Below, in pieces: positions 5,990 through 62,975 of a DNA stretch of 64,000 nt. The stretch lies in assembly GCA_016648135.1 (NCBI GenBank), contig JADDOH010010113.1, forward strand, positions 35,963 through 99,962, read 5' to 3'. The position numbers and the translations under genes were made by a program. Numbering within the stretch: the stretch's first letter is position 1; every line of letters starts with the position of its first letter. The notes under the pieces were generated by a model. That model was not told the origin of the DNA, made no database searches, and saw only the letters and a program-made list of their open reading frames with translations. The stretch comes from Agrypnia vestita. Its lineage: Eukaryota; Arthropoda; Insecta; Trichoptera; Phryganeidae.

Positions 5990-6043
5990 AGCGAATCTCG
6001 ACGTTTCGTTGGATACTTATCCAACGTCATCAGGAGGACGACC
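5990..6043 (-). ncRNA. hammerhead-ribozyme-like motif, PLE subfamily A
   Basis: Read on the minus strand: CUGAUGA (6033-6027), one extra C, a stem-loop with perfect GTTGGATA/TATCCAAC arms, GAAA (6007-6004), a one-pair helix III (C-G), then GUC (6002-6000). CTC before the core pairs with GAG after GUC to start helix I. All core bases match the hammerhead consensus except the extra base before stem II. Predicted cut follows GUC. Helix III is minimal, so cleavage might need a dimer or flanking contacts. Confidence 0.6.
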
Positions 6044-6231
6044 TTTAACCGCGGAGGTGGAGGTTGGACTGATTAGGTGCTGCTTTCTAGGGCGTAAATT
6101 GTATGCACTTTGTTGTGGAGTGTTCTCTTTTTCTACGATAGAGGTCGCCAGTGTGCAATATGTACTAGTTACGTCAGCAAAGTTAGTTAAAGCAGCACCT
6201 AATCAGTCCGACCTCCACCTCCACGGGTAAA

Positions 6232-6290
6232 GGTCGTCCTCCTGATGACGTTGGATAAGTTTCCAACGAAACGTCGAGATTCGCTTCTCG
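6232..6290 (+). ncRNA. hammerhead-ribozyme-like motif, PLE subfamily A, inverted partner
   Basis: Same design on the plus strand: CUGAUGA at 6242-6248, extra C, stem GTTGGA/TCCAAC, GAAA at 6268-6271, C, GUC at 6273-6275, and CTC/GAG helix I. It faces away from the copy at 5990-6043, so either transcript direction through the foldback contains one sense motif. One arm base differs (TTTCC against TATCC) while the core is unchanged. Confidence 0.6.
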
Positions 6291-6395
6291 GTAATACATA
6301 CGGTGCGTATAAAATATCCGAAATTAAGGTTAAATATGTCTAACGACCGTAATAACAACCTTAACTCTTTAATCTGTCGATCATAACATTGTTAT

Positions 6396-6739
6396 TAATT
6401 TACTATTAAGTGATCTGGTTTCTGAATTTCAACTATAATGAATTTCATGCAGATATTACCTGTTGCAGAATCTATGAGAAATGGCTTAACAGTATCACGC
6501 AATCGTTCACCGCAATTTACTATTAAGTGATCTGGTTTCTGAATTTCAACTATAATGAATTTCATGCAGATATTACCTGTTGCAGAATCTATGAGAAATG
6601 GCTTAACAGTATCACGCAATCGTTCACCGCAATTTACTATTAAGTGATCTGGTTTCTGAATTTCAACTATAATGAATTTCATGCAGATATTACCTGTTGC
6701 AGAATCTATGAGAAATGGCTTAACAGTATCACGCAATCG
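6396..6739 (-). repeat. three perfect 117-bp tandem units, open in one frame
   Basis: TACTATTAAGTGATCTGG recurs at 6401, 6518 and 6635, a period of exactly 117 bp. The units look identical base for base, apart from the last being cut about 6-8 bp short. Because 117 is divisible by 3, the minus strand reads through as repeating 39-residue blocks beginning MRDTVKPFLIDSATGN. No known protein is recognised. Perfect identity implies a very recent expansion or an assembly effect; the open frame may be a by-product. Confidence 0.8.
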
Positions 6740-6744
6740 TCAAG

Positions 6745-7595
6745 TTTTTGAGTTAAATTAGCGAGTAATGAAATGCGTTTTCCTATTTTCCAAAAGTTAG
6801 AAATTTACGAAAATCACTACCACGCTTTGTAAATGTCCAATCCTTAATCATTAGAGAAAATCTTATTATTTTATGTCTTACCGTTTGACATTGATTTAAG
6901 TAGGAAAAACACGGGTCCATAGGACACGCAACAGTGGATATAAAGGTTAATCTATACTTTAAACCTAACAAATTGATATGATTAATAAATAAAACACACA
7001 AAGTATAAATATTTTTTTCTTTGTTTTATCCTTAACACTCATTCGTCAAGCTGTTGATTTTTTATTGCATGGAGCGCGATATCGTAGATTCTGGCATATA
7101 CCAAATAACTCAGGGAATCGACGATGATTTTTGTTAAATGATTGGATTTTAAAATCATCATGTTAACTTGAAGGTTTGAAGTAATTTATTTGTTGATATT
7201 TTGTGTCGAAAAATTTTTTTTTATAAAATTTGACGTAGTTTAGCAAAAAGGGTCCAATCCACCCAAAGCCACTTTAGAGTGATTGACGTTTGAAGTTTAT
7301 ACGATATTTCTTCACTAGTTGTACACCCGTGAAAAATCACGGTATTTTGATGGGCGTGTCACTTGAACCATTGCGTGTTACACTCTGATTATCTAAAGTT
7401 TTAATTCCAGCAAGTTACGAATTTACGGACCGACAGACAGACAATGAAATTATTAAATTGAGATTGGTATTTGTTTTAAAATGAAGTAATGTATGATTTT
7501 GTGATTATGAAAATATTAATTTGTGATTATGAAAATATGGGTTTTTGTATAGAATATGAATACTTTTTAAATTGTTAATAGTACAGTTTTTGAAA
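6745..7595. other. AT-rich stretch with one SINE-tail fragment
   Basis: No gene is recognised. At about 7417-7462 the sequence TTACGAATTTACGGACCGACAGACAGACAATGAAATTATTAAA resembles, in shorter words, the 3' part of the SINE-like family at 37410-37650 (ACGGAC, then CAGACAGACAA, then GAAATTATTA). Confidence 0.4.
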
Positions 7596-7659
7596 GGTTA
7601 TGAGTATCGAGAATCCGATTGTTAAATTAGAAAATATCTATATATATTTTGCTTATATA

Positions 7660-7794
7660 TATCATTGCTTAGATATGGGAGAAAAATGTCTGAGCACATT
7701 TATAAACATAAGAAAAGCATTCGACAGCATCTTTCAACTAAAACTAAAAGAAATTGGGATCAAGTGTAAAGTTTTGTCATTGTTATCAATATAA
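7660..7794 (+). pseudogene. non-LTR reverse transcriptase fragment
   Basis: The translation contains STFINIRKAFDSI followed by LKEIGIKCKVLSLL. The F-x-D/N-x-x-K-A-F-D pattern is motif A of LINE reverse transcriptases, where the catalytic aspartate sits; the first aspartate is an asparagine here. Only about 40 codons remain and there are no domains either side, so this is a relic. Confidence 0.5.
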
Positions 7795-7971
7795 ACGAAA
7801 GGAATTTTATCTTCATTGTATGCTGTAATTTTATCTTCATTTATTATGTATGTGAATTTTATATACTGAGAATGTTAAAAAGTCAGTACATTAAAGAATG
7901 AATGTCAGGTACGTAAATAATCGTATACATTTCAGAAAATAAGAAAAATCAAAAATTTATCTTGCAAAATA

Positions 7972-9255
7972 TTAGGTCCTTACACATGAAATTGGCGTTT
8001 AGTATGGGAGGAACACAAAGCCGATTTTTTATTATTATAATATATTTATTTAATCAAAGTATATACCATTGCTATCTATGTACTTTTGCCATCTCATAGG
8101 TAGTTCATCGATCCCTTTACTAAAAAAACCATTCGGACGGGAATCAATAAAATCTTTGAAGGCGGTTTGGACTGCCCCATCGGAGTTGAATTTTTTCCTT
8201 TGCAAGAAGTTATCCAAATTTCGAAAAAAATGGTAATCTGTTAGGGCAAGGTCCGGAGAGTACGGTGGATGTCTTAGACATTCCAATTGAAGCTCCTCTA
8301 ATTTGGTAGCCGTCTGTTGTGCAGTGTGTGGTCTAGCGTTATCATGAAGCAGCAGTGGCCTAGAGCGATTAACCAGCCTCGGTTGTTTAGCAGCTAGCTT
8401 TTCCATCATGGTTTGCAGTTGCTGACAATAGACATCTGCCGTAATCGTCTGGCCAGATTTAAGAAAGCTGTAGTGAACGACACCAGCACTAGTCCACCAA
8501 ACGCTCACAAGTAACTTTTTTGGAGTCAATTTTCGCTTGGGGCATGGTTTGGCTGGTTCGGCAGGGTTCAGCCATTGCGATGAGCGCTTCCGATTATCGT
8601 ACAGGATCCACTTTTCATCACAGGTAATGATTCGATTTAAAATCCCTTCATTATTGTGCCGGTTGAGTAATGCAACGCAGCAGTCAACGCGCGTTTGTTG
8701 ATTTGCTTCACTCAATTCGTGAGGTACCCACCTTTCAAGCTTTTTCACCTTACCAATTTGCTTCAAGTGGATTAAAACAGTTTTATCACTAACACCGCAG
8801 CCTGCAGCTAACTCGGATGTGGTTTGCGATGGATCCGCTTCCATAATAGCCTTCAATTCTTCATTATCAACTTTGGTCTCCGGCCGTCCACGGGGCTTGT
8901 TCTGCAGGTCGAAATTTCCAGAACGAAAACGTTGGAACCAAAAACGCACTGTGTTTTCTTTTGCGGCACCGTCGCCATACACATCATTAATCCTTCGAGC
9001 CGTTTCTGCAGCACTGGTGCCACGGTGGAACTCGTACTCGTAAATAACGCGATATTTCAAGTTTTTCATTTTGTAAACTGAGTGACGCAAAGAAAAAATC
9101 AATTGAGGAAAAAACAAATGAATTATAATTTTCAAAACACAAATACATGAGTAAATAGCTGTATAAATTTGGATTTGGAATTCCTAACCAAAGAAGATAT
9201 TTGAGATCAAATTTGCCAGTACGGCAAAACGCCAATTTCATATGTAAGGACCTAA
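7972..9255 (-). mobile_element. mariner element, cecropia-like, nearly intact
   Basis: A 1284-bp element with terminal inverted repeats starting TTAGGTCCTTACA(C/T)ATGAA at both ends, flanked by TA on each side (7970-7971 and 9256-9257). The size and TA duplication are standard for mariner. It encodes one uninterrupted transposase on the minus strand. A second copy lies at 39843-41141 in the opposite orientation. Confidence 0.93.
8050..9069 (-). CDS. mariner transposase, full length
   Basis: A 339-residue DDD transposase that would excise and reinsert its element at TA sites in the nucleus. Start chosen at MKNLKYRV (9069), which begins the helix-turn-helix domain; an in-frame ATG 22 codons upstream adds an unrelated leader. 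Residues 1-110 hold two helix-turn-helix segments with GRP at 61-63. The family motif WVPHEL is at 114-119. Catalytic residues are D151 (ITCDEKW), D243 (LHDNARPH) and D278 (TDYHFF), giving the D,D34D spacing of mariner. The conserved SPDLAPTD reads SPDLALTD here (P to L at 276), the only obvious departure. Length is close to the usual ~345. Activity is plausible but unproven. Confidence 0.92.
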   Translation of the reverse strand: MKNLKYRVIYEYEFHRGTSAAETARRINDVYGDGAAKENTVRFWFQRFRSGNFDLQNKPRGRPETKVDNEELKAIMEADPSQTTSELAAGCGVSDKTVLIHLKQIGKVKKLERWVPHELSEANQQTRVDCCVALLNRHNNEGILNRIITCDEKWILYDNRKRSSQWLNPAEPAKPCPKRKLTPKKLLVSVWWTSAGVVHYSFLKSGQTITADVYCQQLQTMMEKLAAKQPRLVNRSRPLLLHDNARPHTAQQTATKLEELQLECLRHPPYSPDLALTDYHFFRNLDNFLQRKKFNSDGAVQTAFKDFIDSRPNGFFSKGIDELPMRWQKYIDSNGIYFD

Positions 9256-9257
9256 TA

Positions 9258-10500
9258 TAATGATATTAATATCTGAATAATACGATAATAATTGTAACAG
9301 GAATATTACGAGGTACATAATTTCCCTCGATTTGTTTCGTATAAATTCTATTTATTACAGCTTATTTTAAAGAAAAGATTGTAGACTACCGGGTATCATT
9401 ATTGTTATAATTTATTAAATCTATTTGCTAAATAAAAATAAAAATTACATTTTTTTTAAACATCAGGTGGTTCAGAATTCATACCAAATGCACAGAAAAT
9501 ATTAATATCAATAATTCAGCTGAGCATATAATGTAATTTGTCTTTATATTCGGGTGTCACCTTTAGTAATATACAAAGTAAGAGACTTGTGAATATAAAG
9601 GTAATAAATTAACGTTTTAATTCAATTCAATTAAAATTTAGTAAATTCATAAAGAAACGTATGTCAACTAACAATCTAAAAGTGAAAACCTGTCGTACAA
9701 CGTATAAACAGGAATCAATCGGCATCCATTGAAACCTAAAATATAATGTGATGAATAACACATTATATTTTACGTTTTCTTGTTAGCGAGTAAAATATTT
9801 TTAATGAACGATTTAGCAGCAATTTTACAGTGTACAGGGGGGCCTGTACCTTTCAAGAAACATCAAAATATATAATTATGTAAAAGTTCAACCCATAGCT
9901 TCATTCGAAACGGAGCCATTATCATTTCATTTTTCAGTTCTTGTTCTCCAAATTTCTGCAGAAACCCTCGAACTCCCATTTCGAACAACATAAAAGAATC
10001 GACATCACAAAGAAAAAGGCAGAAAGAAAACAAAGGCACGAAAATACATTGAAATAAATGAAAAACAATAGGTTAAGAAATGCTGATTTTTTGATGGATG
10101 ATTTAACAAAAAAAGCTCAGAACTCATTACGGTCGGCGGCGGAAAACCTATAAAAACCTCCGTCACCTCAAAACAATGGAAGCCTATCCGTATGTTTAGA
10201 CACCCTTACCTAAACACACGTACCTTTCGTCGTGTTTGGAATTCTAAACAACGCTAGGGATTTTTAGCCTTTATAGCGCTTACCTAAGCACATTCTATTA
10301 ATTATAATAGAATTTGAGAAAACATTGTTTTTGTTCCTTACTAATACGGGTTGTTAATTTACAACACATACAATTCGCTGCAACTTCAATAAATTTAATT
10401 TATTTATTTTTGTTAGTAGATACATAAATAATTGAAAACTTTGTGTAATGCGATTGTGTGACATAATACCTTCTATATCCTTATAACTCTTTATCCTTCT
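9258..10500. other. AT-rich stretch without recognised features
   Basis: No gene or repeat boundary could be supported. A small near-palindrome, GTACAGGGGGGCCTGTAC, lies at about 9834. Short frames look like chance. Confidence 0.4.
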
Positions 10501-10521
10501 ATATTCTTATTACCTTTCTTT

Positions 10522-10830: not shown

Positions 10831-10894
10831 ATAAGAATATATAGAATAAATTATTTTTGATTAAATAATTATTTCGATGTAGTATAAAAAATTA

Positions 10895-11150: not shown

Positions 11151-11159
11151 TATACGGGT

Positions 11160-12123: not shown

Positions 12124-12204
12124 TACTCACTACTACACAAAGCATTAACTTTGTGGTTATACTTATAAACAGAATGTTAGTAAACTTAGTAAAAACCACT
12201 ACCA

Positions 12205-12260
12205 GATTTACGGTCTACCGGTTTCGAGACGTACCCGTCTCTTCGTCAGGACCAACACTA
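12205..12260 (-). ncRNA. hammerhead-ribozyme-like motif, PLE subfamily B
   Basis: Minus strand: GGUC helix I strand (12253-12250), CUGACGA (12249-12243), extra A, stem GAGAC/GTCTC around GGGTAC, GAAA C (12225-12221), loop CG, G, GUA triplet ending at 12216, then GACC (12215-12212). GGUC and GACC pair perfectly. Core bases all fit the consensus; N7 is C. Confidence 0.6.
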
Positions 12261-12383
12261 TACTACTATATTCACAACACCATACACTCCAATCATAGTA
12301 TTGTTAAATATAACAATATTGGTGATAGTTTAACAATACTATGGTTGGGGTGTATAGTGTTGTGAATATAGTAGTGTAGTGTT

Positions 12384-12425
12384 GGTCCTGACGAAGAGAC
12401 GGGTACGTCTCGAAACCGGTAGACC
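12384..12425 (+). ncRNA. hammerhead-ribozyme-like motif, PLE subfamily B, inverted partner
   Basis: Plus strand: GGTC 12384-12387, CUGACGA 12388-12394, extra A, five-pair stem II (GAGAC/GTCTC), GAAA 12412-12415, C, loop CG, GUA 12419-12421, GACC 12422-12425. Helix I (GGTC/GACC) is perfect. The predicted cut follows GUA. It is the cleanest motif in the window because all three helices can be drawn. Confidence 0.65.
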
Positions 12426-12489
12426 GTAAATCTGCTCGTGGTTTTTACTAAGTTTACATACATTCTGTTTATTATCATTAATGACAGAT

Positions 12490-14711: not shown

Positions 14712-15005
14712 TATAGATGACTCACAAAGACGAATTTATTTATATGGAAAAGCGTGTCTTGGTTGTGCGTCCACAGGTCGTTAAAACACGTCATAATACC
14801 CCAGAAGACATAAAACAGAAGATTCTGAGTGGCCGTGAAAACCTAAGAACATTCTTGGATATGATGTTATCTTTGCATTGTATAAAGTGATCACTTAAAC
14901 TAGCTAATACAGATCGTAAGCCCTGTGGTCTCCCAATAAAGACTTTCATACATGTTTCCGCATATAAATAGCTTCGCCTCCACGAAACATCTATAATTTA
15001 TCTTA
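14712..15005 (+). repeat. RX-A pieces with an embedded PLE-D terminal fragment
   Basis: 14712-14780 (ACTCACAAAGACGAATTTAT) and 14884-15005 (ATAAAGTGATCACTTAAACT through ATAAATAGCTTCGCC) belong to family RX-A. Between them, 14795-14865 (CCCAGAAGACATAAAACAGA, then AAGATTCTGAGTGGCCGTGA) matches the end of PLE subfamily D at 16999-17060 and 62665-62720. The mosaic suggests insertion of a PLE end into an RX-A copy. Confidence 0.5.
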
Positions 15006-16950: not shown

Positions 16951-16998
16951 GCCGTGTATATGTAACCTCTCTGGCCAGAGAGGTTACATATACACGGC
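16951..16998. repeat. perfect 48-bp palindrome in a PLE subfamily D end
   Basis: 24-bp arms meet without a spacer at TGGCCA: GCCGTGTATATGTAACCTCT is followed by CTGG, then the exact complement. The right arm continues into PLE-D sequence. In the PLE-D copy at 62748-62796 the predicted hammerhead cut is GUU^GGCCAGAGAGG, so both arms start at that cut site and share GGCC at the centre. Confidence 0.85.
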
Positions 16999-17065
16999 AG
17001 AATATCCCAGAAAACTATACACAGAAGATTCTGAATGGCCGTGAATACCTAAGGACATTTCTAAA
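16973..17065 (+). mobile_element. Penelope-like element (subfamily D) terminal fragment
   Basis: GGCCAGAGAGGTTACATATA, then CACGGCAGAATATCCCAGAA, then AACTATACACAGAAGATTCT, then GGCCGTGAATACCTAAGGAC. The same order is inverted at 62665-62755. It starts at the expected ribozyme cut point and runs to the element end. No protein sequence remains. Confidence 0.6.
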
Positions 17066-21547: not shown

Positions 21548-21599
21548 TGGTACCTATAATGCATTCTGAGTGATGGGATTAAATAAGTAACAGAGTTTT

Positions 21600-21755
21600 A
21601 GTTAAATTAGTATAAAACACTACCACATTTTAGGTATACCGGTTTCGAGATGTACCCGTCTCCTCGTCAGGACCAACACTACACTACTAAAGTCACAACA
21701 CTTTACACCCCAACCATAGTATTGTTAACTTTTCACATGCGTGTTAATCTTGTCA
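21600..21755 (-). mobile_element. Penelope-like element (subfamily B) terminal fragment with damaged hammerhead-like motif
   Basis: Matches the left arm at 12185-12310 (CACTACCA, ACCGGTTTCGAGA, GTACCCGTCTC, GTCAGGACCAACACTA, CCATAGTATTGTTAAC). On the minus strand (21670-21637) it reads CUGACGA, G, GAGAC/ATCTC, GAAAC, CG, GUA, with one mismatch in stem II and helix I reduced (GGTC against TACC). Probably inactive. Confidence 0.6.
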
Positions 21756-22299: not shown

Positions 22300-22525
22300 A
22301 ATAAATAATAATAACTTTGTTATACACCACTTATATTTATTAAAAATCCAACCAGGTATCGCTACTACCGTAGCTTCTTCAGGGATCTTAACTGTCTAAA
22401 TATACAAAAGTTATGCGCTTATATACTAGTGTGAAAGGTGGAAGGACGGAGTGCCAATAGTGGGGGTAGGCGGTGGGATTATACAGGGAACATTATTATT
22501 AAGAGGGAACATATTTAAGAGTGGA
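22300..22525 (-). mobile_element. Penelope-like element (subfamily E) terminal repeat
   Basis: On the minus strand it carries a hammerhead-like core and then AATAAATATAAGTGGTGTAT, AACAAAG, much like the end of subfamily C (AATAAAGTGGTGTTAAAC at 62483). The upstream part, 22400-22525, is unique. No protein sequence was recognised. Confidence 0.5.
22345..22387 (-). ncRNA. hammerhead-ribozyme-like motif, PLE subfamily E, one core change
   Basis: Minus strand: GATCC helix I (22387-22383), CUGAAGA (22382-22376), extra A, perfect stem GCTAC/GTAGC, GATA in place of GAAA (22360 on), C, loop CTG, GUU, then GGATT. Helix I GATCC/GGATT is five pairs including a G-U. The A-to-U change inside GAAA is expected to abolish cutting. 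Confidence 0.5.
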
Positions 22526-22529
22526 CTAT

Positions 22530-23099
22530 AAGACAAATTTATTTGATTATTAATTATTTTATGATTTAAATTAATCGCTTATCTTATCTCTAATGCCTCT
22601 AAATTATGTTGTCTATTACCAATTCCGTTTTTATGGATAATACTAACTCCTGTGCTATTATTAAACGTGTGGTCTTCTTCAATTAAATTTATTATTTATT
22701 TCTTTTGAAAAAAAACTGAAAAACTTTTCATACACCAGAAAACACTTCCAATTCTACGGCCCAACCTGGGCCCAGCCTGGGATTGCTCCCTCTTCATCCA
22801 CCCCTAGTGATATGGTTGCGAGAAACCGCACAAACCTCCATGGGCGTGGAAGAAGCCACACGAAATGAAATGTGATTTTGCAAGACACGCGGAAGAGAAC
22901 ATTTGCAAGCGAAACAATGGTTACGTAACCGGGGATGTCACCGGGACACTGTGGCACAGCAAACAGAACGCTCACCGCAAAAACTCTATTGACCATTGTC
23001 AATAGAGAATTTCGACAGAAATTAAGTATTCTCTTAACCGCCCGATGGCGCCTAACTGTTTAAACAAAGGCGACATCTGTATAGCAAACTGGTTCGATG
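22530..23099. other. stretch with one GC-richer block
   Basis: 22750-23000 is GC-richer and has an 82-codon minus-strand frame (begins MTMVNRVFAVSVLFAVPQCP, hydrophobic near its start) with no recognised family. It is more likely a retroelement relic than a gene. Otherwise nothing could be supported. Confidence 0.25.
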
Positions 23100-24721: not shown

Positions 24722-24793
24722 GCTGGGATAGTGAAATTGGTAACACGCTGTGCGCGAAACACAGAGGTCCGTGGTTCGAATCCAGGTTCCAGA
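24722..24793 (+). tRNA. tRNA-Ser(CGA)-like pseudogene or SINE head
   Basis: Seventy-two bases fold as a tRNA. The A box is TAGTGAAATTGGTAACACG and the B box GGTTCGAATCC, a perfect match. The anticodon stem CTGTG/CACAG is perfect with loop CGCGAAA, so the nominal anticodon is CGA. Flaws: position 33 is G instead of T, the T stem has a G-G mismatch, the first acceptor pair is G-A, and a serine tRNA should have a long variable arm. It is therefore a tRNA-like pseudogene, perhaps the head of a SINE with an AT-rich body. Confidence 0.6.
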
Positions 24794-24859
24794 ATTTAAT
24801 TTTTCAGTTTTATTATTTGATTTTTGTGTATTTCTCTTTATTTCATTTATTTATTTCGT

Positions 24860-25114: not shown

Positions 25115-25214
25115 AGTATTAAATATATATCTATATATAATATAATATATATATATATATATATACATATATATATTAACGTATACATATATGTATATAT
25201 ATGTATACGTTAAT
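25115..25214. repeat. (TA)n/(TATATG)n microsatellite with inverted halves
   Basis: About 80 bases of TA-rich simple repeat, ending in AACGTATACATATATG and its complement CATATATGTATACGTT (25177-25212), which makes a perfect inverted repeat. Confidence 0.7.
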
Positions 25215-25665
25215 CTTTCCAAGCGGGTGTCATACAGCCATTCGGGCATTATGTGGCTAAGACGCTTGTGTGGAAAATCTTTGAACGATAGAGTGAGTAA
25301 TGAACAAATTAGAAGTGAATGCAACGCTGACTGTAGTGTGCTAGATAGAATAAAGAAAGGAGTGCTGAGATGGTTTGGTCATGTGGAACGTATGAACGAG
25401 GAAACGATGGTAAATAAAATGTATGAGGCGAGTGTTGGAGGCAACAGGAATAGAGGGCGTCCGCGAAAGACCTGGCACGCTCAGGTACTACAAGTATTTG
25501 AGGATGGCCCTGTTAAAAGCCGCAACAACCGTAGAACGTGTACGAGAAGATGTATGAATGTGGCTGAAACAAAAGTGGTGTGCCAGGATAGAAGAGTGTG
25601 GCGTTCAATCCTCTCTGCTTGCCCCTGCGGGGAAACGGCGTGATGGTTAGTTAGTTAGTTAATAT
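25215..25665 (+). pseudogene. LINE family L-A, 3' end of ORF2, best open copy
   Basis: An open frame to the stop at 25641 encodes about 140 residues. It includes RRLCGKSLNDRVSNEQIRSE, then LRWFGHVERMNEETMVNKMY, then GGNRNRGRPRKTWHAQV, then RRVWRSILSACPCGETA at the end. This is the C-terminal region after the reverse transcriptase of an insect LINE. A 3' tail of (TTAG)n (GGTTAGTTAGTTAGTTAA) follows the stop, as LINEs with microsatellite tails show. Other copies: 34676-35330, 56136-56880 and 27215-27530, all minus strand. 5' truncated, so non-functional. Confidence 0.75.
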
Positions 25666-32439: not shown

Positions 32440-32950
32440 CGCGAGGTTTACTGCTTAAGATCCCGTTAGAAAAAATGCTTTTACGAGCCCAAATGACTCA
32501 AAAAGCCAATTTCGTTCTTTTTCTTTGCATTTAGAATGAAACAGGGATAATTATTTAAAAAAAAATATACGATACGTTAAATATTTGAAGGCGGTGGGGT
32601 TTACTTAGTGAAAATACATTTTAACGATTATGAATAAAACAATATTTTTGTTTTTCAAATATAATGTTTTCTTTGTGATGTGATTCGTTAATCATGTTTA
32701 TTTTTTTAATAGTTAATGCAGCCACTCGAGTTCATATATTTATCCAACCGGTTTGGAAAACAATAGTTACTTTTGTCAGGGTGATAAAAAACTAATAAAA
32801 ATTTATCATGTTTTCTTACACAATACAATAATATTTTTTTAAATAAATATTGATGTTGAAACTGGCGGCTTCGCGGTTAAATATAGCTGGTTACTTATTT
32901 CTAACGATTCAAAGTTTTTTGCGAACTTATTACGAGAATTAAATATAAGT
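32440..32950. other. AT-rich stretch without recognised features
   Basis: No gene or repeat boundary could be supported. Confidence 0.35.
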
Positions 32951-34659: not shown

Positions 34660-35330
34660 TATTTCTTAACTAACTAACTAATTAACTTACCATCACTTAA
34701 CTCACCATAAAATAAAATAACAATCAGGCTCATGTTTTGCACATCATAATGGAAAAACTTACTTACCATCACGCCGTTTCCCCGTGGGGGTAGGCAGAGA
34801 GGATAGAGCGCCATACTCTTCTGTCCTGACATACAACTTTTGCTTCGTCTACATTCATACATCTTCGCACGCAAGCTCGACGGTTGTTCAGGCTTCTAAC
34901 AGGACCGTCTTCCAGTATCTGGTTAATCTGGTCATGCCACGTCTTCCGTGGTCGCCCTCTCTTTCTGGCGCCGTCAACACTTGCATCATATATCTTTCTT
35001 ACCATTCTTTCCTCATTCATTCGCTCAACATGCCCAAACCACCTGAGCGACCCTATTTTTATTCTATGTATTATGCTACGATCAGCTTTACATTCATTCC
35101 TAATATCTTCATTCTTTACTAGAGTAAAGATATATGATAGATCATACATGGATTTACCACCCATACGTCTAAGGGACCTCATCTCCACTGCATTCAATCT
35201 ACTTTCGTTCCTCTTCTGCCAGCTCCAGGCTTCACTTCCATACATTAGTGTCGGTACCAGAACTCCATTATGTACCGCTAGTTTTGCCTCGGTAGACATA
35301 TTTCTATTAGAAATTATTGCATTCAATTAT
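34660..35330 (-). pseudogene. LINE family L-A, 3' end of ORF2 inside the hAT element
   Basis: Frame 35326-34769 reads NAIISNRNMSTEAKLAVHNG, VLVPTLMYGSEAWSWQKRNE, then RWFGHVERMNEERMVRKIYD and GARKRGRPRKTWHDQINQIL, ending SAYPHGETA. YGSEAW and RWFGHVERM are conserved after the reverse transcriptase of insect LINEs. The 3' tail GTGATGGTAAGTAAGT follows the stop. A second tail piece, GTGATGGTAAGTTAATTAG then TTAG repeats, lies at 34665-34697, so two LINE insertions may be stacked. 5' truncated. Confidence 0.75.
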
Positions 35331-39842: not shown

Positions 39843-41141
39843 TTAGGTCCTTACATATGAAATTGGCGTTTTGCCGTACTGGCAAATTTGATCTCAAATA
39901 TCTTCTCTTTGGTTAGGAATTCCAAATCCAAATTTATACAGCTATTTACTCATGTATTTGTGTTTTGAAAATTATAATTCATTTGTTTTTTCCTCAATTG
40001 TTTTTTCTTTGCGTCACTCAGTTTACAAAATGAAAAACTTGAAATATCGCGTTATTTACGAGTACGAGTTCCACCGTGGCACCAGTGCTGTAGAAACGGC
40101 TCGAAGGATTAATGATGTGTATGGCGACGGTGCCGCAAAAGAAAACACAGTGCGTTTTTGGTTCCAACGTTTTCGTTCTGGAAATTTCGACCTGCAGAAC
40201 AAGCCCCGTGGACGGCCGGAGACCAAAGTTGATAATGAAGAATTGAAGGCTATTGTGGAAGCGGATCCATCGCAAAACACATCCGAGTTAGCTGCAGGCT
40301 GCGGTGTTAGTGATAAAACTGTTTTAATCCACTTGAAGCAAATTGGTAAGGTGAAAAAGCTTGAAAGGTGGGTATATCACGAATTGAGTGAAGCAAATCA
40401 ACAAACGCGCGTTGACTGCTGCGTTGCATTACTCAACCGGCACAATAATGAAGGGATTTTAAATCGAATCATTACCTGTGATGAAAAGTGGATCCTGTAC
40501 GGTAATCGGAAGCGCTCATCGCAATGGCTGAACCCTGCCGAACCAGCCAAACCATGCCCCAAGCAAAAATTGACTCCAAAAAAGTTACTTGTGAGCGTTT
40601 GGTGGACTAGTGCTGGTGTCGTTCACTACAGCTTTCTTAAATCTGGCCAGACGATTACGGCAGATGTCTATTGTCAGCAACTGCGAACCATGATGGAAAA
40701 GCTAGCTGCTAAACAACCGAGGCTGGTTAATAATTAGGCTGGTTAAGCTCTAGGCCACTGCTGCTTCATGATAACGCTAGACCACACACTGTACAACAGA
40801 AGGCTACCAAATTAGAGGAGCTTCAATTGGAATGTCTAAGACATCCACCGTACTCTCCGGACCTTGCCCCAACAGATTACCATTTTTTTCGAAATTTGGA
40901 TAACTTCTTGCAAAGGAAAAAATTCAACTCCAATGGGGCAGTCCAAATCGCCTTCAAAGATTTTATTGATTCCCGTCCGAATGTGTTTTTTAGTAAAGGG
41001 ATCGATGAACTACCTATGAGATGGCAAAAGTGCATAGATAGCAATGGTACATACTTTGATTAAATAAATATATTATAATAAAAAAAAATCGGCTTTATGT
41101 TCCTCCCATACTAAACGCCAATTTCATATGTAAGGACCTAA
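39843..41141 (+). mobile_element. mariner element, second copy, disrupted
   Basis: 1299 bp with the same inverted ends as 7972-9255 (TTAGGTCCTTACATATGAAA) and TA on each side (39841-39842, 41142-41143). Very close in sequence to copy 1. Confidence 0.92.
40030..41063 (+). pseudogene. mariner transposase, broken by a small duplication
   Basis: Same protein as the one at 8050-9069. The frame is open from MKNLKYRV at 40030 to a stop at 40735-40737, just after RLVNN, then resumes in another frame from about 40750 to 41063. The break is a local duplication: AGGCTGGTTAA occurs twice with TAATT between, adding about 14 bases. D151 is upstream of the break; HDNARPH and TDYHFF downstream. WVPHEL is changed to WVYHEL, while SPDLAPTD is normal. 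It cannot make a full transposase. Confidence 0.9.
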
Positions 41142-44600: not shown

Positions 44601-44779
44601 CAAAATGTCACCTACTCCGTTATCATTGTAGGTCATGCAGTAGCGTGTGCAATCGATGTAATCGGTCACCAACACCGCCAACCAGAATTCTGTCAGAACA
44701 AAGTCAATATTTGTGGCCGAGCCTTGTCGTTGTGGCGTTAAAATTATTTCAATACGAAATATACTTCTTTTGGTTCGTG

Positions 44780-44905
44780 TCTTCTGGGGTATTGCGCCGT
44801 GTTTTTATGACCTTTCTGGCCAATATTTAAGACCGCATTGCAGGACCCATCATCAGGGATCATGTGTCGAACAAGTAGATTCTGAGCGGCCGTGAAAACC
44901 ATTGC
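44780..44905 (-). mobile_element. Penelope-like element (subfamily D), degraded end
   Basis: GTATTGCGCCGTGTTTTTAT, GACCTTTCTGGCCAATATTT, GCAGGACCCATCATCAGGGA match 62725-62795. The minus-strand CUGAUGA and most of stem II survive but GAAAC is lost, so no ribozyme is expected. It then continues GATTCTGAGCGGCCGTGAAA, the outer end in opposite orientation. Confidence 0.55.
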
Positions 44906-45135
44906 GTTGAGTAATGGATATACAATACAGAATTAATTGATAAAATATTAATTAATAAATTAAATTAAAACATAACTAACCAATTTTTATACAATTCACA
45001 GATAAACACAAATAATAATAACGATAATTGGCGAAGAATTCTATATATTAATACATTTTCGAATCAAATTTTTCAAAATATCTACAAAAAAGTATTAGAC
45101 CTGCATTTTATACAAATAATAATATAGAGAAACTC
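44906..45135. other. AT-rich stretch without recognised features
   Basis: Nothing could be supported. Confidence 0.3.
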
Positions 45136-45139
45136 CTCG

Positions 45140-45514
45140 AAAATTCAAAAGATAAAGGTAAAATATTTAACAATTCAGGTGTTTATAAACTGTTGGGTAC
45201 AGCGTTTATATTGGAAAAACCGGTCGCAATTTCAATGTAAGAGTTAGAGAGCATTTAAGATGTCTGAATAATCATGGTTTTTCTGAATTTTCAAATCATT
45301 TATTAGAAAATGATCACGGTTTTGATACAAATTTAGGACTTTCTATTTTAGACATAAATTGCTTTGGTCTGAAATTGAATAATTTAGAATCATTAGAAAT
45401 TAGTAAAGCATGTAATGGTAAACAAAATATTATTAATAATCAATTAAATTTAACTACTAGCCCAAATCTAAAATTTTTTCCAATAATTGCGAGTAATCAA
45501 GAACTTCAGAAATA
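45140..45514 (+). pseudogene. Penelope-like GIY-YIG endonuclease, longest relic
   Basis: DKGKIFNNSGVYKLLG in one frame (GVY in place of GIY) and, after a frameshift near 45200, VYIGKTGRNFNVRVREHLRC in another. The YIG strand and the R-x-x-x-H helix of a GIY-YIG nuclease are visible. It continues LNNHGFSEFSNHLLENDHGF, then LGLSILDINCFGLKLNNLES and runs to a stop at 45512. This is the nuclease that PLEs carry behind their reverse transcriptase to nick target DNA. Besides the frameshift, a short gap removes the C-x-x-C region after GVYKL. The reverse transcriptase is not found upstream. Confidence 0.65.
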
Positions 45515-45973
45515 ATATTTTAAAATAATTTTTCAAATAATTCAGAAAAACAAAAGACATTCTTCATTTTGATGTTTTGACAGTTATGCAACACCCTGGC
45601 GATGGAAAGGTTTTTGCGAAACATGTAGGTGTAATTAATCAAATAAAATAAGTAGATACATACAAATAATACAATCAATATTTTTTTTAAATGTCTATCT
45701 ATGATGTTGCTGAATCAACTGAAAAAAAAATATTAATAAAAAGAAAACACATTGAATAATCAACTTATTTTCTGGGCCAATTCATCATTAATCAGTTTTG
45801 AAATTTTCGACTTATTGTGATCAAAAGACCGAGGAATTCCTCCTTAGTCACTTGTTCCCTCCTCGGATCCAGTAAAGCGATCGGACGTGATCAAGAAGAG
45901 GCATCTTCTTCATCATATCGAGGAGCTCAGATCAGATCCCAGGCAGGGATCAAACGCGACGCATGTTAAGCAC
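45515..45973. other. stretch without recognised features
   Basis: Nothing could be supported. Confidence 0.3.
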
Positions 45974-48212: not shown

Positions 48213-48672
48213 TTGTTTAAGTTTTATCTTTTTAATTTTGTGAGAAGCGTTTCTCATGAGGGCATTGTCAATCAAAATATTTCACATTGAAAAATTTGTA
48301 TTCATATTGAAAGTAATTTTTTTAGATTTAATTAAAGTTTTTCGTCTTTTTGTAGGTTACGAAAAACCTAAGTAATTAAGTAAAGAGTTAAAGTTATTAT
48401 TAAGGTCGTTGGGCATATTTACGTGTTAAACAAAATTGATATTTTATACGAACCGTATATATTTCACTGAGAAGCAAATCTAGGCGTTTCGCTGGACGAG
48501 ACTTCATTAATAAAATATCCTTCTATTTTACACATTAATTCTTAAAATTTATTTTCAATACTTTTTATATAAATACAAGTCGTTGAATGTAAAATATTTA
48601 GATTGATAATGCCCTCATAAGGCGGCACGCGTCTAGAAAATTAAAAAGGTAGAACTGAAAAAACAAGTAGTT
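48213..48672. mobile_element. foldback element FB3 enclosing a PLE-A fragment
   Basis: Arms 48213-48285 and 48590-48672 are inverted copies (ACTTGTTTAAGTTTTATCTT / its counterpart, and ATGAGGGCATTGTCAATCAA). Between them 48450-48505 (GATATTTTATACGAACCGTA, TTTCACTGAGAAGCAAATCT, AGGCGTTTCGCTGGA) is a PLE subfamily A terminal repeat truncated inside stem II of its hammerhead-like motif. Confidence 0.6.
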
Positions 48673-50496: not shown

Positions 50497-52223
50497 AGTT
50501 TTTGATGTGTAACAACTTTCCTCTCGTTTTCCCGCAATCTGTGGCTGTGATTTTGTGAAAAAGGACGGAAATGCGTAACAGGAAATAAGACGCCGGGGAA
50601 GCGCGCGCAATTTCATTTAACCAACGAGCGCGCGCGATGGGGAAAAATCATCGTTTATAAACAAATCAATGTCCAGCAAGAGCCATCGCAGCGAAGACGC
50701 CCACTTCCAACAGCCGATGCTTCTGATTTTGTATATATGCTTCGCGTCTCGTGTCAAGCATGTGGATGATGTAACTTTGATATATTTTGGCTTATTTTTT
50801 CAAAACTATCCAATAAATAATTTTTTTTACATTAATGTAAACAATAACTACCCTTAATGATTTACATTCTGAAATTGTATGTAATTCATGTGATTATTTT
50901 TAAATATTTACTCAACGTTTTCATACAATATGTGTGGCGGCACACTACCGCCATCTATGAAAATAAATAAAAACATATAATTGACCAAACACATTTCTTA
51001 ACAAAAATGCGTGTGTAGATATACGGTACCTACCTAGTGCGGCAAAAACCAATAATAAATAAATGCACATACATTTTCTTTACTTGTGTTTATTAATTAA
51101 TAAATATATAGCTATTAGCTTTTTTAAATTTTGATGTTAATTTCCGTCACTGCCCAATTAATATTTTTAATTGTGAGATGTCAAATCTTACACAAAATAT
51201 GCGACTCTCTGTTAGGCTCGCTCGTTTTTTTGGGATATCCTGTCGTGTTTCTGCAACTTTTCTGACCGACGAATCCTATCGCAGGGTCCATCATTAGTGC
51301 TGATGTGTATTGATTGAACACTACAACACCTTCATATTATTCAGGGGCGTATGTGAAGAATATGAAGTGAACACCGCGTAGAACTACAGTAGATCGAAGC
51401 TAGGACATCGTGGTCCTGGCTATTAGCCCAACAAAATAAGTTAAGGGCAACAAAAAGTCGAGCGAGCCTTACAGTAGTCGCATATGATGTGTAACATTTG
51501 ACATCTCACTATTAAATATATCAATTGAGCTACAACAGAAATTAACATCAAAATTTAAAAAAGCTAATACTTATTCATTTATTAATTAGTAAATACAAGT
51601 AAATAAAATGTATGTACATTAATTTATTAATATACATACATATAATTGTTATTGTAATTTTGTTGAATTTATTTATTATTTAATTGTATTATTATTGAAA
51701 TTATTTATTATTAAATTTTGACGGACTAGGTGTGTACCATGTATCTACACACGCATTTTTATTTAGAAACGTGTTTATGAATTATATGTTTTTATTTATT
51801 TTCACAGATGGCGGTAGGGTGCCGAACTTTATACGAATGTAATTATTTTAAAATATTTTATTTTTACGAATAAAATATTTTAAAATAATTACATAAATTT
51901 GAGAATGTAAATCATTAAAGGTAGTTATTGTTTAAATTTAAAAAATAAGTATTTATTGGATAGTTTCCAAGATATAAGCCAAAATATATCAAAGTTACAA
52001 CATACACACGCTTGACACCAGCCACGTAACATATATACAAAATCAGAAGCGTTGGCTGTTGAAAGTGTGCGTCTTCGCTGTGATGGCACTTGCTGGACGA
52101 TGATTTTTTCCATCGCGCGTGCTTCGCTTCCCTGGCGTCTAATTCCTGTTACGCATTTCCGTCCATTTTCGCGAAATCACTACCAAGATTGCGGAAAAGC
52201 GAAAGATATTACACATCAAAAAT
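50497..52223. repeat. 1.7-kb imperfect inverted repeat around a PLE-D fragment
   Basis: Left arm about 50497-51225 and right arm about 51468-52223 are inverted relatives. The outer ends read TTTTTGATGTGTAACA and TTACACATCAAAAA; inside are GATGATTTTTTCC-type, GCTTCTGATTTTGTATAT and GTAGATAC-type blocks on both sides. Arms differ by substitutions and indels. The centre, 51230-51320, is a degraded PLE-D end (GGGATATCCTGTCGTG, CGCAGGGTCCATCATTAGTG). It could be a large foldback transposon or an inverted duplication; no flanking duplication was seen. Confidence 0.7.
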
Positions 52224-58175: not shown

Positions 58176-58179
58176 AGAA

Positions 58180-58741: not shown

Positions 58742-58795
58742 TATATGTAGATGGAGGAATATGATCGAGAAATTAGAAACACAAGATAATATTAA

Positions 58796-59110: not shown

Positions 59111-59114
59111 AAGA

Positions 59115-59205
59115 ACTAAAAATATATGGGATATTAATAATAATTAAGTACTAACAAGAAAACAAATATAAAAGATAACTATATTTCCAAAAAACATTTT
59201 CAATA
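59115..59205. other. short spacer
   Basis: Nothing recognised. Confidence 0.3.
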
Positions 59206-59208
59206 AAC

Positions 59209-59699: not shown

Positions 59700-59800
59700 T
59701 ATAAGTGGTGAAAACGAAGTTCATTTCAATTAATTATATTAATAATGTCACTACGAAATCGTTTTGCTCTTTTTGAAGAAGTAATCAATTATGGTTTTAA

Positions 59801-60546
59801 AGCCATGTATTCACTAGGGGACAAATCGCGAAACATTCCGCTCGACATGTCGCATCAACATCTACGTTCATGTTTCGGGGACAATGACGCGGTCATTTGA
59901 CGTGTACACACCGGGACTCGCATATCTTGTCGCGACAATGTCACCCGATGAGGTTATGATGACAGCTGCAGTATCTCATTTGGCGAAAACGGGGTTCCGC
60001 GCAATTCGAAATGTTTTTTTGGGTCGCAATTTCAAATTAACGAGGTTTTACTGTAGTAAATTGAATATTATTAAAAACAAGGTCCTTTTTGCAAATAATT
60101 ATTGTTTTCCACACGTCGCGGAAATGTCGCCCTATGGTGTTATGATGACAACTGCGTATCTGTTTATGTTAATGAGTTTGTCGAAACGTAAGAGGAGAAA
60201 AAAGCGGAGAATGCGAAATTATTTACTGCAAAGAGAAAGAAGGACGAACATTCTATGCGATCTTCGATCGATGCAGCTCGATGAGTTCAAGAACAATTTC
60301 GTTTCCCCGCACTGTCATCTTGACAAATACAGCGCATGCGTATTCACTTGTAAACATAACACGTGGTACAGACGCTCCGCGTAATGTTGCAGTGAGCTCG
60401 CTCGGGTACCGTGCGCATGGCACGTAGAAATGCCGCGCTATGTTGTACGCGCCGTCGCGGAACAGTGCACGACGTTGCAACGTCACGTAGACTCTATGCC
60501 GCGCGTGCTGTTGAGGGACAATTTGTCCCCTAGTGAATACATGGCT
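59801..60546 (+). mobile_element. Harbinger-type MITE HB1, copy 3
   Basis: 746 bp, flanked by TAA (59798-59800 and 60547-60549). Contains a longer frame (59884-60384) than the other copies but with no known domain. Lacks a short GCAACGTTGCCACG segment present in copies 1 and 2. Confidence 0.85.
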
Positions 60547-60554
60547 TAAAATAT

Positions 60555-60745
60555 AAAGACACCGAATTAACAATACGAACAAATTCTTTCCGCGGCATTT
60601 CTTGGAACTGGAAACGACAATTTATGCATTTTATGCAGAAGTTTGCAAGTCAAGAATACTTGTGTAGTATTTCAGTCACCAAGAACTTATAATAATTATA
60701 TTTTTATGTTATACACGTGCATTTCTTTGTATTTTTTGTTTAATT
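60555..60745. other. AT-rich spacer
   Basis: Nothing recognised. Confidence 0.3.
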
Positions 60746-60749
60746 CTTA

Positions 60750-60838
60750 AGAATACCCTGATGAAGCTTGATCCAAGCAAAACCGGTTGGCATATAACTA
60801 ATAAATAGTGTTTTTTACCAAGTTAACGTGTTTAATTT
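60750..60838 (+). mobile_element. Penelope-like element (subfamily F) end with a mutated hammerhead-like motif
   Basis: CUGAUGA at 60758-60764, extra A, perfect stem GCTTG/CAAGC, then AAAAC where GAAAC is expected, CG, GUU, and GGCATATAACTAATAAATAG then TGTTTTTTACC. The G12-to-A change removes a catalytic base. The downstream part resembles the ends of subfamilies B, C and E. Confidence 0.5.
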
Positions 60839-60987
60839 ATTTAAGGAAGATGCCGTTTCCGAAACAGGTTGAAAAAATACATTTTTATGATAGTAATCTT
60901 CTGATATACTGATGCCAAGAAGTTTCACTTCTTTAACTGTAACTGGTTGCGGATATTTTGTACGAACCGTATGTTTTTCCGAGAAAC

Positions 60988-61036
60988 GATTCTCGACGTT
61001 TCGTCGAATTCTTATTCAACGTCATCGGGAGGACGA
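60988..61036 (-). ncRNA. hammerhead-ribozyme-like motif, PLE subfamily A, at a PLE 3' end
   Basis: Minus strand: CTC, CCGAUGA in place of CUGAUGA (61028-61022), extra C, stem II from GTTGAAT / ATTCGAC with one mismatch, GAAAC (61002-60998), GUC (60997-60995), GAG. One core change (U4 to C) probably weakens or stops cutting. Confidence 0.5.
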
Positions 61037-61152
61037 CCTTTACCCGCGGAGGTAGAGGGCGGACTAATTACTTCTTTCGAGGGCGTAAATTATATTCACG
61101 TTGTTGCGGAGTTTTCACTTCTTCTACAACAGAGGTCGCCAGTGTGCAATAT

Positions 61153-61664
61153 GTACTAGTTACGTCGGCGGACTTTACTGCGCCGTCTCTCAAGGGTATT
61201 TGATAGATTGTAACTGTCATCTCTATTGAAATTGGGATGTTTGTATATTTCAATGGGCTCCCTCACTAATCTGGGTATAAGGTGCGGTTCTGTTGATAAC
61301 ATTTTTGCCTTGTCAAATCTGATGAAGTGACAGAGATTCCCTTTGGATGCATGTTCGCAGATTGCCGATGTATTGGAGTTGTTGTTTTTAATTTCTCCAA
61401 TACGTTCCTTCAATCGTGTAGCGATATTGCGTTTGGTCTGTCTGTGTAGAACGCTCCACCATCGCATGGCACTCTGTATACACCTGGTGACTCGCACGGT
61501 GTGTTATCTTTCACACTACCTAGTTTCACTTCAGTAGTGAGATTGCGCCATTTTAGATTCGCAACTCGATTGTCGCGGTTCTGTTCAACCTGTGGACATT
61601 TATCACCACATAACAATACCATCTTTGCTCTGCATCTGCCACCTTCCATTAGATCGTGTACCAA
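61153..61664 (-). pseudogene. Penelope-like GIY-YIG endonuclease, frameshifted
   Basis: The first frame (61664 down) reads MVHDLMEGGRCRAKMVLLCG, CPQVEQNRDNRVANLKWRNL and GVYRVPCDGGAFYTD. GVY corresponds to the GIY strand. A one-base deletion near 61445 then shifts the frame to QTKRNIATRLKERIGEIKNN, where the YIG strand should have been (YTD-R). It continues SAICEHASKGNLCHFIRFDK, REPIEIYKHPNFNRDDSYNL. The nuclease nicks DNA to start target-primed reverse transcription in PLEs. The H/E pattern of the family is visible (R-x-x-E, EH, RE-x-IEI-x-K). Confidence 0.75.
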
Positions 61665-62039
61665 AAATCTCTCCGTGCCATCCTCATGCCTAATATTTTA
61701 AATTTTCACACGAAGCAAACACATTGTGGCGAGACATAATATCTTTAAATAAAATAACTTTTAGTGTATATTATAGATATCTCACAGAGACGAAACTGTA
61801 TTAATTATGGGAAAGTAGGTATAGAAGTCATTTGGGTGTAACAGGACTTATGACCTGTCTTTTTATGGTTGGCTTAAGTGATCACTTTACACAATTGTAA
61901 CATTCGCCATTTCCACCCATGATAGAATATACCATGCTTATTCATTTTTTGGAAGTTGTATATATGTTCACATTGCGTGAAAAGCTTTCATATATGAGTT
62001 GTAAGCGCCTTTTCCATGCGGCCTGTACAAAGCCATATA

Positions 62040-62600
62040 CACTAATTGATTAATAATGTCTCTGTGACATAAATCCAGCACTGTTCTGAAAGATTTGAAC
62101 AAACTCAAAATATTCTGAAAATAACTTTTTGTTTAACACCACTTTATTGGGTCGGGTGTAGATGTACTTCATAGAAATGATATAGGTATTCGTCTCAATA
62201 ATTTAGAAGCCTTAGAAATAAAAAAAATCTTTAAAAACAAATAAAAAATATTTACTATATAAGCAACTAGATTTATCGCGTAGTCCAATTATAGATATAT
62301 TCCCCTTCCAATTAACTACACCCACCCACACCCACTCTCTTTCACTCAACCCCCACCACAGTTGACGTTTTGTCTCTTTCTTCCCTTAATGCTTTCATAA
62401 TCGTTCGTAATTCTGTTTTTATTTAGTTAATATCTGAACCCTGATGAAGACTCAGTTGAGTCGAAACTAGTTGGTTTTAACTCAATAAAGTGGTGTTAAA
62501 CAAAAAGTTAATCAAATTTCAAATTTTTGGAAATTGTTTAACTCACACAACTTGTTTTGTATGCGAGTTGCATTTTCACTACCGCCATCTGCAGTCCAAA
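62040..62600 (+). mobile_element. Penelope-like element (subfamily C), short insertion with inverted end
   Basis: Left part: inverted terminal piece CTTTTTGTTTAACACCACTT at about 62126. Then a nuclease relic, IGIRLNNLEALEIKKIF at 62185-62240, matching FGLKLNNLESLEISKA in 45360-45420. The right terminal repeat with a hammerhead-like motif and AATAAAGTGGTGTTAAACAA closes it at about 62510. Thus C-terminus, 3' UTR, 3' repeat plus an inverted end piece remain. Confidence 0.6.
62436..62478 (+). ncRNA. hammerhead-ribozyme-like motif, PLE subfamily C
   Basis: GAACC helix I strand (62436-62440), CUGAUGA (62441-62447), extra A, perfect stem GACTC/GAGTC around AGTT, GAAA (62463-62466), C, loop TA, GUU (62470-62472), then GGTTT. 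Helix I GAACC/GGTTT is five pairs with one G-U. All core bases fit apart from the extra A. Confidence 0.62.
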
Positions 62601-62663
62601 GCTTTTTCATTCCCGTAATCCAATACAGATGTCACTATCGATAGTGAGGTATCTATATTTTGG

Positions 62664-62975
62664 TTAAAAATGTCCTTAGGTTTTCACGGCCGTTCAGAAT
62701 CTTCTGTGTATAGTTTTCTGGGATATTCTGCCGTGTATATGCGACCTCTCTGGCCAACGTTTCGGATCCCATTGCAGGGTCCATCATCAGGGCTAATGTG
62801 ATGAGTGAGTTTTGAAGTGTAGGTTAAGTATTGCCTTGCAATACCGTACCGAAGTCAGGGTTTCTCCAAGTTTGTGTTATGTTAAATACTGGATTGCGGT
62901 ACCGTGTCGAAAGCAAGGTGTGGTCTTGATGTAGTGTGTTATACATATCCCAGAAAACTATACACAGAAGATATA
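62664..62975 (-). mobile_element. Penelope-like element (subfamily D), terminal repeat with inverted end piece
   Basis: Plus strand order: TGTCCTTAGGTTTTCACGGC, CTTCTGTGTATAGTTTTCTG, GCCGTGTATATGCGACCTCT, CTGGCCAACGTTTCGGATCC, GCAGGGTCCATCATCAGGGC, unique sequence, then ATATCCCAGAAAACTATACA at 62946-62971, which is the inverted outer segment. Related fragments: 14795, 16973, 44780 and 51230. Confidence 0.65.
62748..62796 (-). ncRNA. hammerhead-ribozyme-like motif, PLE subfamily D
   Basis: Minus strand: AGCC, CUGAUGA (62790-62784), extra U, stem GGACCC/GGGATCC with a bulged base, GAAAC (62763-62759), GUU (62758-62756), GGCC. Helix I GCC/GGC is three pairs. Stem III is a single C-G pair. The predicted cut is GUU^GGCC. 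Confidence 0.55.

Follow-up and report, generated by a model that had tools for sequence, protein, structure and literature searches.

Predicted hammerhead ribozymes and head-to-head insertions of Penelope-like elements in the genome of Agrypnia vestita

The stretch of DNA analysed here, called the window in the following, is 64,000 nucleotides of contig JADDOH010010113.1 of Agrypnia vestita (assembly GCA_016648135.1, positions 35,963 to 99,962 of the forward strand), and it carries a series of short hammerhead-like motifs in repeats that we assign to Penelope-like elements (PLEs). A preliminary description, made from the sequence alone, held that ten sites share one design, and the motif was present at all ten of them: CUGANGA and, after a single intervening base, a stem-loop, then GAAAC, 0-3 bases and GUH, with CUGANGA and GAAAC each allowed one changed base. 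The core elements of a type I hammerhead are thereby all found, namely CUGANGA...GAAA...UH with stems I and II, and with a stem III only as an intermolecular palindrome. The sites sort into six families, which agrees with the several PLE subfamilies of that description: 5990, 6232 and 60988 (family 1), 12205, 12384 and 21637 (family 2), and the single sites 22345, 60758, 62436 and 62748 (the last belonging to family 7). The list of sites stood only in part, as its starts lie a few bases off the core and a clear copy at 45588-45635 (+) was missed, and the core is mutated in several copies (22345, 60758, 60988 and 45588). The exact core pattern CTGANGAN{8,30}GAAAC has 7 matches in the window, whereas 100 shuffles averaged 0.62 and never exceeded 3. 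A strict descriptor of motif plus pairing, which demanded a core with at most one mismatch, a stem II of at least 4 pairs, GUH and a stem I of at least 3 pairs, gave 7 sites in the window and 0 in 60 dinucleotide shuffles, and at its loosest setting it recovered 8 of the ten sites, where shuffled windows gave 0.18 on average and never more than 1. The two that were lost are 21637, where a substitution breaks stem I, and 62748, where stem II is bulged. Exactly one base separates CUGANGA from stem II in all 8 descriptor sites, even though 0-2 were permitted.

Two head-to-head pairs of arms with the ribozymes directed outward are found in the window. The family 1 pair consists of an untailed left arm at 5940-6178 (-), with its core at 6033-6000 (-) and the predicted cut after 6000, and a right arm at 6189-6373 (+), with its core at 6242-6275 (+) and a tail at about 6336-6373; the flanks of the pair (5940-6373) are alike over 11 bp with one mismatch, as read by eye. 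In the family 2 pair it is the left arm at 12165-12308 (-) that has a tail, albeit decayed, and a core at 12249-12216 (-), and the right arm at 12329-12472 (+), with its core at 12388-12421 (+), is untailed; both are matched at E 8.5e-12 by the covariance model R1 that is described below. A further family 2 copy with broken stem I lies at 21578-21736 (-) (core 21670-21637, R1 E 4.3e-7), and another family 1 terminal repeat at 60932-61169 (-) (core 61028-60995, with U4 changed to C). The hammerhead of the 22.3 kb family, 22350-22382 (-), has GAUAC replacing GAAAC (R1 E 1.7e-5), and that of the 60.8 kb family, 60758-60788 (+), has AAAAC and a stem III of ACCGGU (R1 E 6.6e-11); both were found with the descriptor. 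The 62.4 kb family has its hammerhead at 62441-62472 (+), with stem III ACUAGU (R1 E 1.2e-8) and an inverted partner arm at 62092-62152, while the copy missed earlier, 45588-45635 (+), is of a GGAAA family with stem III ACAUGU (R1 E 4.3e-8). Family 7 is represented by a hammerhead with bulged stem II and stem III ACGU at 62756-62790 (-) (R1 E 0.017) and part of a tailed arm at 62660-62830 (-) with an inverted untailed partner at 62945-62972, and also by a palindromic copy at 16951-17064, both arms of which start within 1 nt of the predicted cut (GGCC) and the left arm of which stops before the near start site.

R1 was built from 16 sites elsewhere in the same 1.32-Gb genome, aligned without gaps at one fixed length and with no window sequence; a seventeenth candidate (L118) was excluded from the alignment for lack of GUH. 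These equal-length sites (alignment A2) replaced a MAFFT alignment of the window sites (A1), which was discarded as its loops of unequal length were misaligned. In the 16-site alignment stems I and II are paired in 80.1% of cells compared to 64.8% in shuffles, both sides are changed in 37 cells compared to 16.8, and the covariation score is 0.499 compared to 0.237; 0 of 500 shuffles reached any of the three. Slid stem partners pair in 29-51% only. The earlier claim of covariation in stem II is thus upheld by the double-changed cells, though two other measures are not outstanding: 67 of 500 shuffles had at least as many pairs with a double change (9), and 253 of 500 at least as many further pair types (18). 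The preliminary description had proposed a scan with the Rfam hammerhead models and with a custom model built from its own sites. The Rfam models were silent in the window, and R1 found six of the ten sites at E≤1.7e-5, i.e. 12208 (-), 12380 (+), 60750 (+), 62433 (+), 21629 (-) and 22342 (-), followed by 62748 (-) at E 0.017 and the unlisted site 45588 (+) at 4e-8. Some microRNA families gave matches over 12204-12433 below their gathering scores; these were rejected and most likely reflect the inverted repeat.

Genome-wide, CTGANGA-N14-GAAAC has 1247 matches and its reversed control 306, and when the pattern is extended with NN-GTH the numbers are 583 and 9. Among 100 listed matches of the 583 there are 77 distinct stem II regions, and a stem II of at least 4 pairs is formed in 32 of these with one extra base, in 5 with none and in 3 with two. 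The dinucleotide between GAAAC and GUH is self-complementary in 90 of the 100 listed (CG 43, AT 42, TA 4, GC 1) and in 69 of 79 distinct combinations, compared to a chance expectation of about one quarter. A loop of two bases is unable to pair with itself within one molecule, and we therefore read ACCGGU, ACAUGU and ACUAGU as a helix III that is most likely formed between two RNAs through the short palindrome; the ACGU of families 1 and 7 may form the same intermolecular helix. The minimal helix III that had been presumed for these terminal-repeat hammerheads is hence supported, and refined to a palindromic and probably two-RNA helix. The best reading of one genome hammerhead, L124, has no extra base (stem II GGUUG/CAACC), and both core forms may coexist in the genome.

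The coding sequences beside the motifs place them in PLE terminal repeats, as the preliminary description had it. A search of the genome with the Pfam GIY-YIG family gave 63 matches, of which 4 loci were examined, and an R1 hammerhead lies downstream of the endonuclease in 4/4 (E 7e-8 to 6e-4). Reverse transcriptase (RT) was sought in one of them, L159, which has an open reading frame (ORF) of 559 amino acids without stops that holds both RVT_1 (E 3.8e-11) and GIY-YIG (E 7e-6), the combination in one ORF by which PLEs are recognised, and its hammerhead match begins 82 nt downstream of the ORF. With this ORF as query, tblastn revealed endonuclease remnants in the window upstream of the sites at 22.4 and 45.6 kb: a C-terminus at 22507-22686 (-) (40% identity, E 5e-6), just upstream of its hammerhead, and a longer piece at 45076-45479 (+) (49% and 56% identity, E 1e-28). 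The region 62170-62304 is 67% alike to the former, and reading frames suggest a frame-broken GIY-YIG remnant at approximately 61190-61700 (-), upstream of the family 1 hammerhead. Elsewhere in the genome, the upstream parts of a family 2 arm (L064, E 2e-14) and a family 1 arm (L035, E 2e-5) match the C-terminal part of the L159 ORF, and the L035 region gives E 0.008 against Pfam GIY-YIG, below the Pfam cut-off. Since the ORF has matches in the window as well as in L064 and L035, we conclude that the elements are PLEs; the insertions examined also have the inverted pseudo-long terminal repeats (pLTRs), optional tail and short target-site duplication that characterize this group. Judged from their sequence, the motifs are minimal type I hammerheads in the pLTRs of several PLE families together with decayed copies, which is a known kind. 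Minimal type I hammerheads of PLEs were reportedly treated by Cervera and de la Pena in 2014 and by Lunse, Weinberg and Breaker in 2017, the latter in a paper whose title is said to claim that they act as dimers. The likeness to these extends over type I order, a near-absent helix III, the position in the pLTR, thousands of dispersed copies and, going by that title, the dimer action that is predicted here. One point of comparison is the single extra base that follows A9 in most of the copies whose stem II pairs; an extra core base is said to be on record, in the title of a paper, for a viroid hammerhead.

The arms differ in which of two start sites of reverse transcription they extend to. Measured from the predicted cut, the near start site is 60 nt downstream in family 1, 48 nt in family 2 and 56-57 nt in family 7, and the far start site about 90-100 nt downstream. 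By reading, the near site of families 1 and 2 coincides with a start codon or precedes it by 3 nt, and the first dozen or so codons make up the tail. For family 1 we sampled 30 loci by a search with a tail-less query. Twenty-two of them have an inverted partner, and exactly one arm is tailed in 21/22, none in 1 (L036) and two in 0. A first family 2 sample of 30 loci, 26 after removal of duplicates, yielded 17 pairs, each with one tail. The pattern of a tailed family 2 arm has at least 2,434 matches in the genome, and from 2434 of these we took 40 places in list order, leaving out two already sampled; 30/40 have a partner within the sequence taken around them (29 distinct, as L082 and L085 are the same locus) and 0/29 partners are tailed. 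In family 7, 30 of the 39 main places listed outside the window were sampled, one duplicate was removed and 23 pairs were examined; where the tail state could be read on both arms there was exactly one tail in 21/21, with the reservation that L149 and L157 have the same duplication and are possibly a single locus, and that the window locus occurs a second time as L129. Pooled over these three families, one tail is found in 88/89 pairs, none in 1 and two in 0, where the main arms of the second family 2 set and of family 7 had been selected for a tail, so that only the state of the partner is informative there. Tails were scored with gaps allowed; gap-free scoring missed the true tails of L079 and L080, and the counts are identical. 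Four loci of other families (L119, L121, L125 and L127), judged by eye and with no reference for the tail, are consistent with this.

The outer flanks of a pair share a word of at least 8 bases in 17/22 family 1 pairs (36/462 comparisons between different loci), in 22/29 of the second family 2 set (70/812) and in 19/21 family 7 pairs (18/420), and therefore one duplicated target encloses both arms. The inner ends behave differently between families. In family 1 the 5' ends of the two arms are more than 20 nt apart in 21/22 pairs, and the joints show an overlap of 1-5 bases in 13 pairs, direct contact of the arms in 1, and filler of 2-17 bases in 7 and of 49 in 1. In family 7 they are at most 3 nt apart in 8/22 pairs (L132 left out), mostly at one shared end. 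The joint of L132 is a long near-perfect palindrome, unlike most joints. As for the origin of the two arms, paired family 2 arms agree in 61/74 cells of four common variable columns, where shuffled partners agree in 37 on average and in no more than 53 in any of 3000 shuffles; by column the agreement is 14/15, 17/18, 15/20 and 15/21, the last being what is expected (14.0). Raw distance does not separate the family 2 pairs (0.069 within, 0.065 between), though shuffled partners never matched the observed distance sum (0/5000, with L054 misaligned). Paired arms may accordingly have come from a single RNA or from two RNAs of the same locus.

The preliminary description had proposed that the ribozymes are used to process PLE RNA, and if they trimmed the template one would expect the 5' ends of the arms to pile up at cut+1. 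The arms that aligned short of the 3' end were left out of the tally (2/52 in family 1, 7/111 in family 2), and family 2 ends upstream of about position 400 are partly uncertain, as the subfamilies diverge there. In family 1, 45/50 arms start upstream of the cut and 0/50 within 1 nt of cut+1, and in family 2 the numbers are 90/104 and 3/104. Most arms of these two families thus cross the cut, which does not support taking their 5' ends as marks of it. The family 7 copies listed are 98-100% alike; 7/33 arms from the first 19 loci start 8-11 nt before the core and 0/33 within 1 nt of the cut, and in a second set of ten loci, picked partly for this end, it is 11/19 and 1/19. The peak about 9 nt before the core coincides with TCACATT, which we take to resemble an initiator, and transcription of family 7 probably starts there; an RNA that is probably the mRNA would then have the ribozyme as its outermost 5' leader. 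An open frame runs, as read by eye, from an AUG inside the hammerhead core of 62660-62830 (-) through the cut and the tail, and cleavage would accordingly remove the start codon. The role in processing is hence not supported as it was stated, since the RNA that was inserted seems to have been mostly uncut across the predicted site when it was copied; a re-closed circle would look alike.

It is from this last possibility that the strongest competing explanation draws, in which the RNA is cut by the ribozyme ahead of insertion and then serves as the template, either as such or closed into a circle at the cut in the manner of retrozymes. A circle ligated at the cut would also yield copies that cross it, and would explain why the start sites lie just 3' of it. 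Some arms do begin where this explanation has them, namely L040 and L102 of family 2 at cut+1 and L150 of family 7 within 1 nt, and short family 2 arms are frequent just past the cut, with 14/104 starting between cut+1 and 22 nt beyond (positions 439-461). A sharp pile-up at cut+1 is nevertheless absent in families 1 and 2 and in the first batch of family 7, whose ends peak before the core and not at the cut, and ribozyme mutants of PAc, the Poseidon element of Anolis carolinensis, still insert in vitro (PMC11167929). We regard a cut or re-closed template as unlikely.

The explanation that we find highly probable as a whole is that of minimal hammerheads in PLE pLTRs with a dimer fold, two-strand target-primed insertion and a mostly uncut template. 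The RT/GIY-YIG ORF would be followed by the pLTR, the hammerhead and the two reverse-transcription start sites, an order pieced together from the loci above, and the catalytic fold would most likely be completed by two RNAs that pair through the palindromic helix III. We propose that reverse transcription is primed on both strands of one staggered target cut, so that each target 3' end primes its own complementary DNA (cDNA), one from the near start site and the other from the far. Both cDNAs would extend toward the 5' end of an RNA in which the ribozyme site is usually uncut, and would in most cases end at different positions before being joined head to head, into the paired product that is observed.

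Several observations weigh against this explanation, apart from the selection of main arms for tails mentioned above. The search found no partner arm in 8/30 family 1 loci (three of the eight have an inverted partner of tail only) or in 10/40 family 2 places (by eye, L102 has a stub of about a dozen bases). The untailed arm falls short of the near start site in 7/89 pairs (L028, L036, L042, L069, L075, L101 and L107); among the pairs where it reaches that site there is one tail in 82/82. The flanks of the first family 2 set give weak support for a duplication, with shared words in 9/17 pairs and 26/272 comparisons between loci. Both arms of the 17.0 kb palindrome in the window begin within 1 nt of the cut, as a cut template would have it. 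As to the element, the pieces of the endonuclease remnant beside family 1 in the window have no Pfam match, no protein relatives were found for them or for the L035 piece, and tblastn with the L159 ORF found nothing beside the 60.8 and 62.7 kb sites. As to the motif, R1 leaves the three family 1 sites, with their longer stem II, unmatched at E≤10, and the Rfam hammerhead models have zero matches in the window at gathering score or E≤10; we keep the sites as a candidate minimal type I variant since the core elements are found, though Rfam gives no support.

The inverted pairs could also come from self-priming, where the end of a cDNA folds back and copies itself, and this is what has been proposed for the rotifer Penelope on an antisense template, according to an excerpt of PMC3846280. 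The rotifer element, as the same excerpt describes it, has a head-to-head inverted pLTR, a 31-bp tail on one of the copies and a target-site duplication of 8-10 bp, and is thus much like the insertions described here. A few palindromic joints (the 17.0 kb window copy and L132) would fit with self-priming, and so would the closely spaced family 7 arms, 7/8 of which lie at or beside the end about 9 nt before the core and one (L144) at -44. The differing 5' ends of the family 1 arms do not fit with it, but with cleavage and extension of both strands as in PAc; the two arms moreover use different start sites, and a single duplicated flank encloses both. The 5' ends, start sites and duplications taken together fit priming from both strands, and we disfavour self-priming as improbable.

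Two-strand priming also has a counterpart in vitro, as PAc cuts and extends both target strands and its tail is the stretch between two start sites (PMC11167929). Here as in PAc the hammerhead lies just upstream of two internal start sites, with one PAc start site 85-92 nt past the cut, as computed from that paper, compared to the about 90-100 nt found here, and the PAc ORF begins in the hammerhead, as seems to be so in family 7. The difference is that for PAc in vitro no apparent difference of start site between the strands was seen (PMC11167929), whereas the insertions examined here have one of each.

It is very improbable that the motifs are non-catalytic relics or chance folds that are kept only through repeat copying. 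The mutated cores at 22345, 60758, 60988 and 45588 would agree with this, and catalysis is here a prediction from the sequence, but relics would hardly show the compensatory changes across families, the palindromic dinucleotide in 90/100 listed sites or the excess of the genome pattern over its reversed control. Least credible of all are non-autonomous retrozymes (tandem units of 150-450 bp) in place of PLE pieces, for even if animals commonly have short elements with type I hammerheads, according to an excerpt of PMC7229834, the copies here stand in head-to-head pairs with tails and their upstream parts encode the PLE endonuclease, and no tandem was noticed in the loci examined, where no dedicated tandem search was made.

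These copies add two things to a known kind, an insertion rule with numbers attached and a test, on genomic copies, of the role of the ribozyme. The role of the PLE ribozyme in vivo is called still a mystery in an excerpt of PMC7761336, and validation of the later steps of PLE insertion is described as still outstanding (PMC11167929). The many copies in the genome turn both into counts, of tails per insertion and of 5' ends relative to the cut, and these favour two-strand priming over self-priming and an uncut template over a cut one. Neither the rule nor the test was found in the literature searched, a search that the two closest ribozyme papers fall outside. In the twin priming of L1 the second target strand likewise primes a second cDNA, which gives an inverted segment; that second priming is internal and variable, whereas here both occur at fixed cognate sites.

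We would tentatively go one step further, to a proposal that we judge to fall somewhat short of an even chance. Every PLE insertion would then be two reverse transcriptions, one per target strand, obligatorily from sites 35-50 nt apart, with two enzyme protomers probably side by side on one uncut RNA of which the family 7 ribozyme would be the 5' end. The ribozyme could in that case be a leader switch or pairing device outside the making of the template.

Other pieces of these families are scattered over the window. Comparison of the window repeats gave a short tailed family 1 arm at 48381-48496 (-), truncated within the hammerhead, and decayed family 7 pieces of 76-80% identity lie at 44779-44866, 51226-51307 and 14775-14856, with the outline of a hammerhead, by eye, in the first two. 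A degenerate hammerhead-like candidate at 32738-32786 (-) is not significant (R1 E 0.23). Shortly after the family 1 pair, a 117-bp unit is repeated three times in tandem at 6397-6747 (95-100% alike). Two close copies of a transposase ORF, 8050-9135 (-) and 39952-40737 (+), are presumably of mariner type, as judged from the sequence. Another two related ORFs, 25191-25643 (+) and 34769-35326 (-), look to us like the ends of non-LTR retrotransposon proteins, and the first has no Pfam family above cut-off. The sole Rfam match above gathering score in the window, at 24722-24794 (+), is a tRNA gene or a tRNA-derived repeat.

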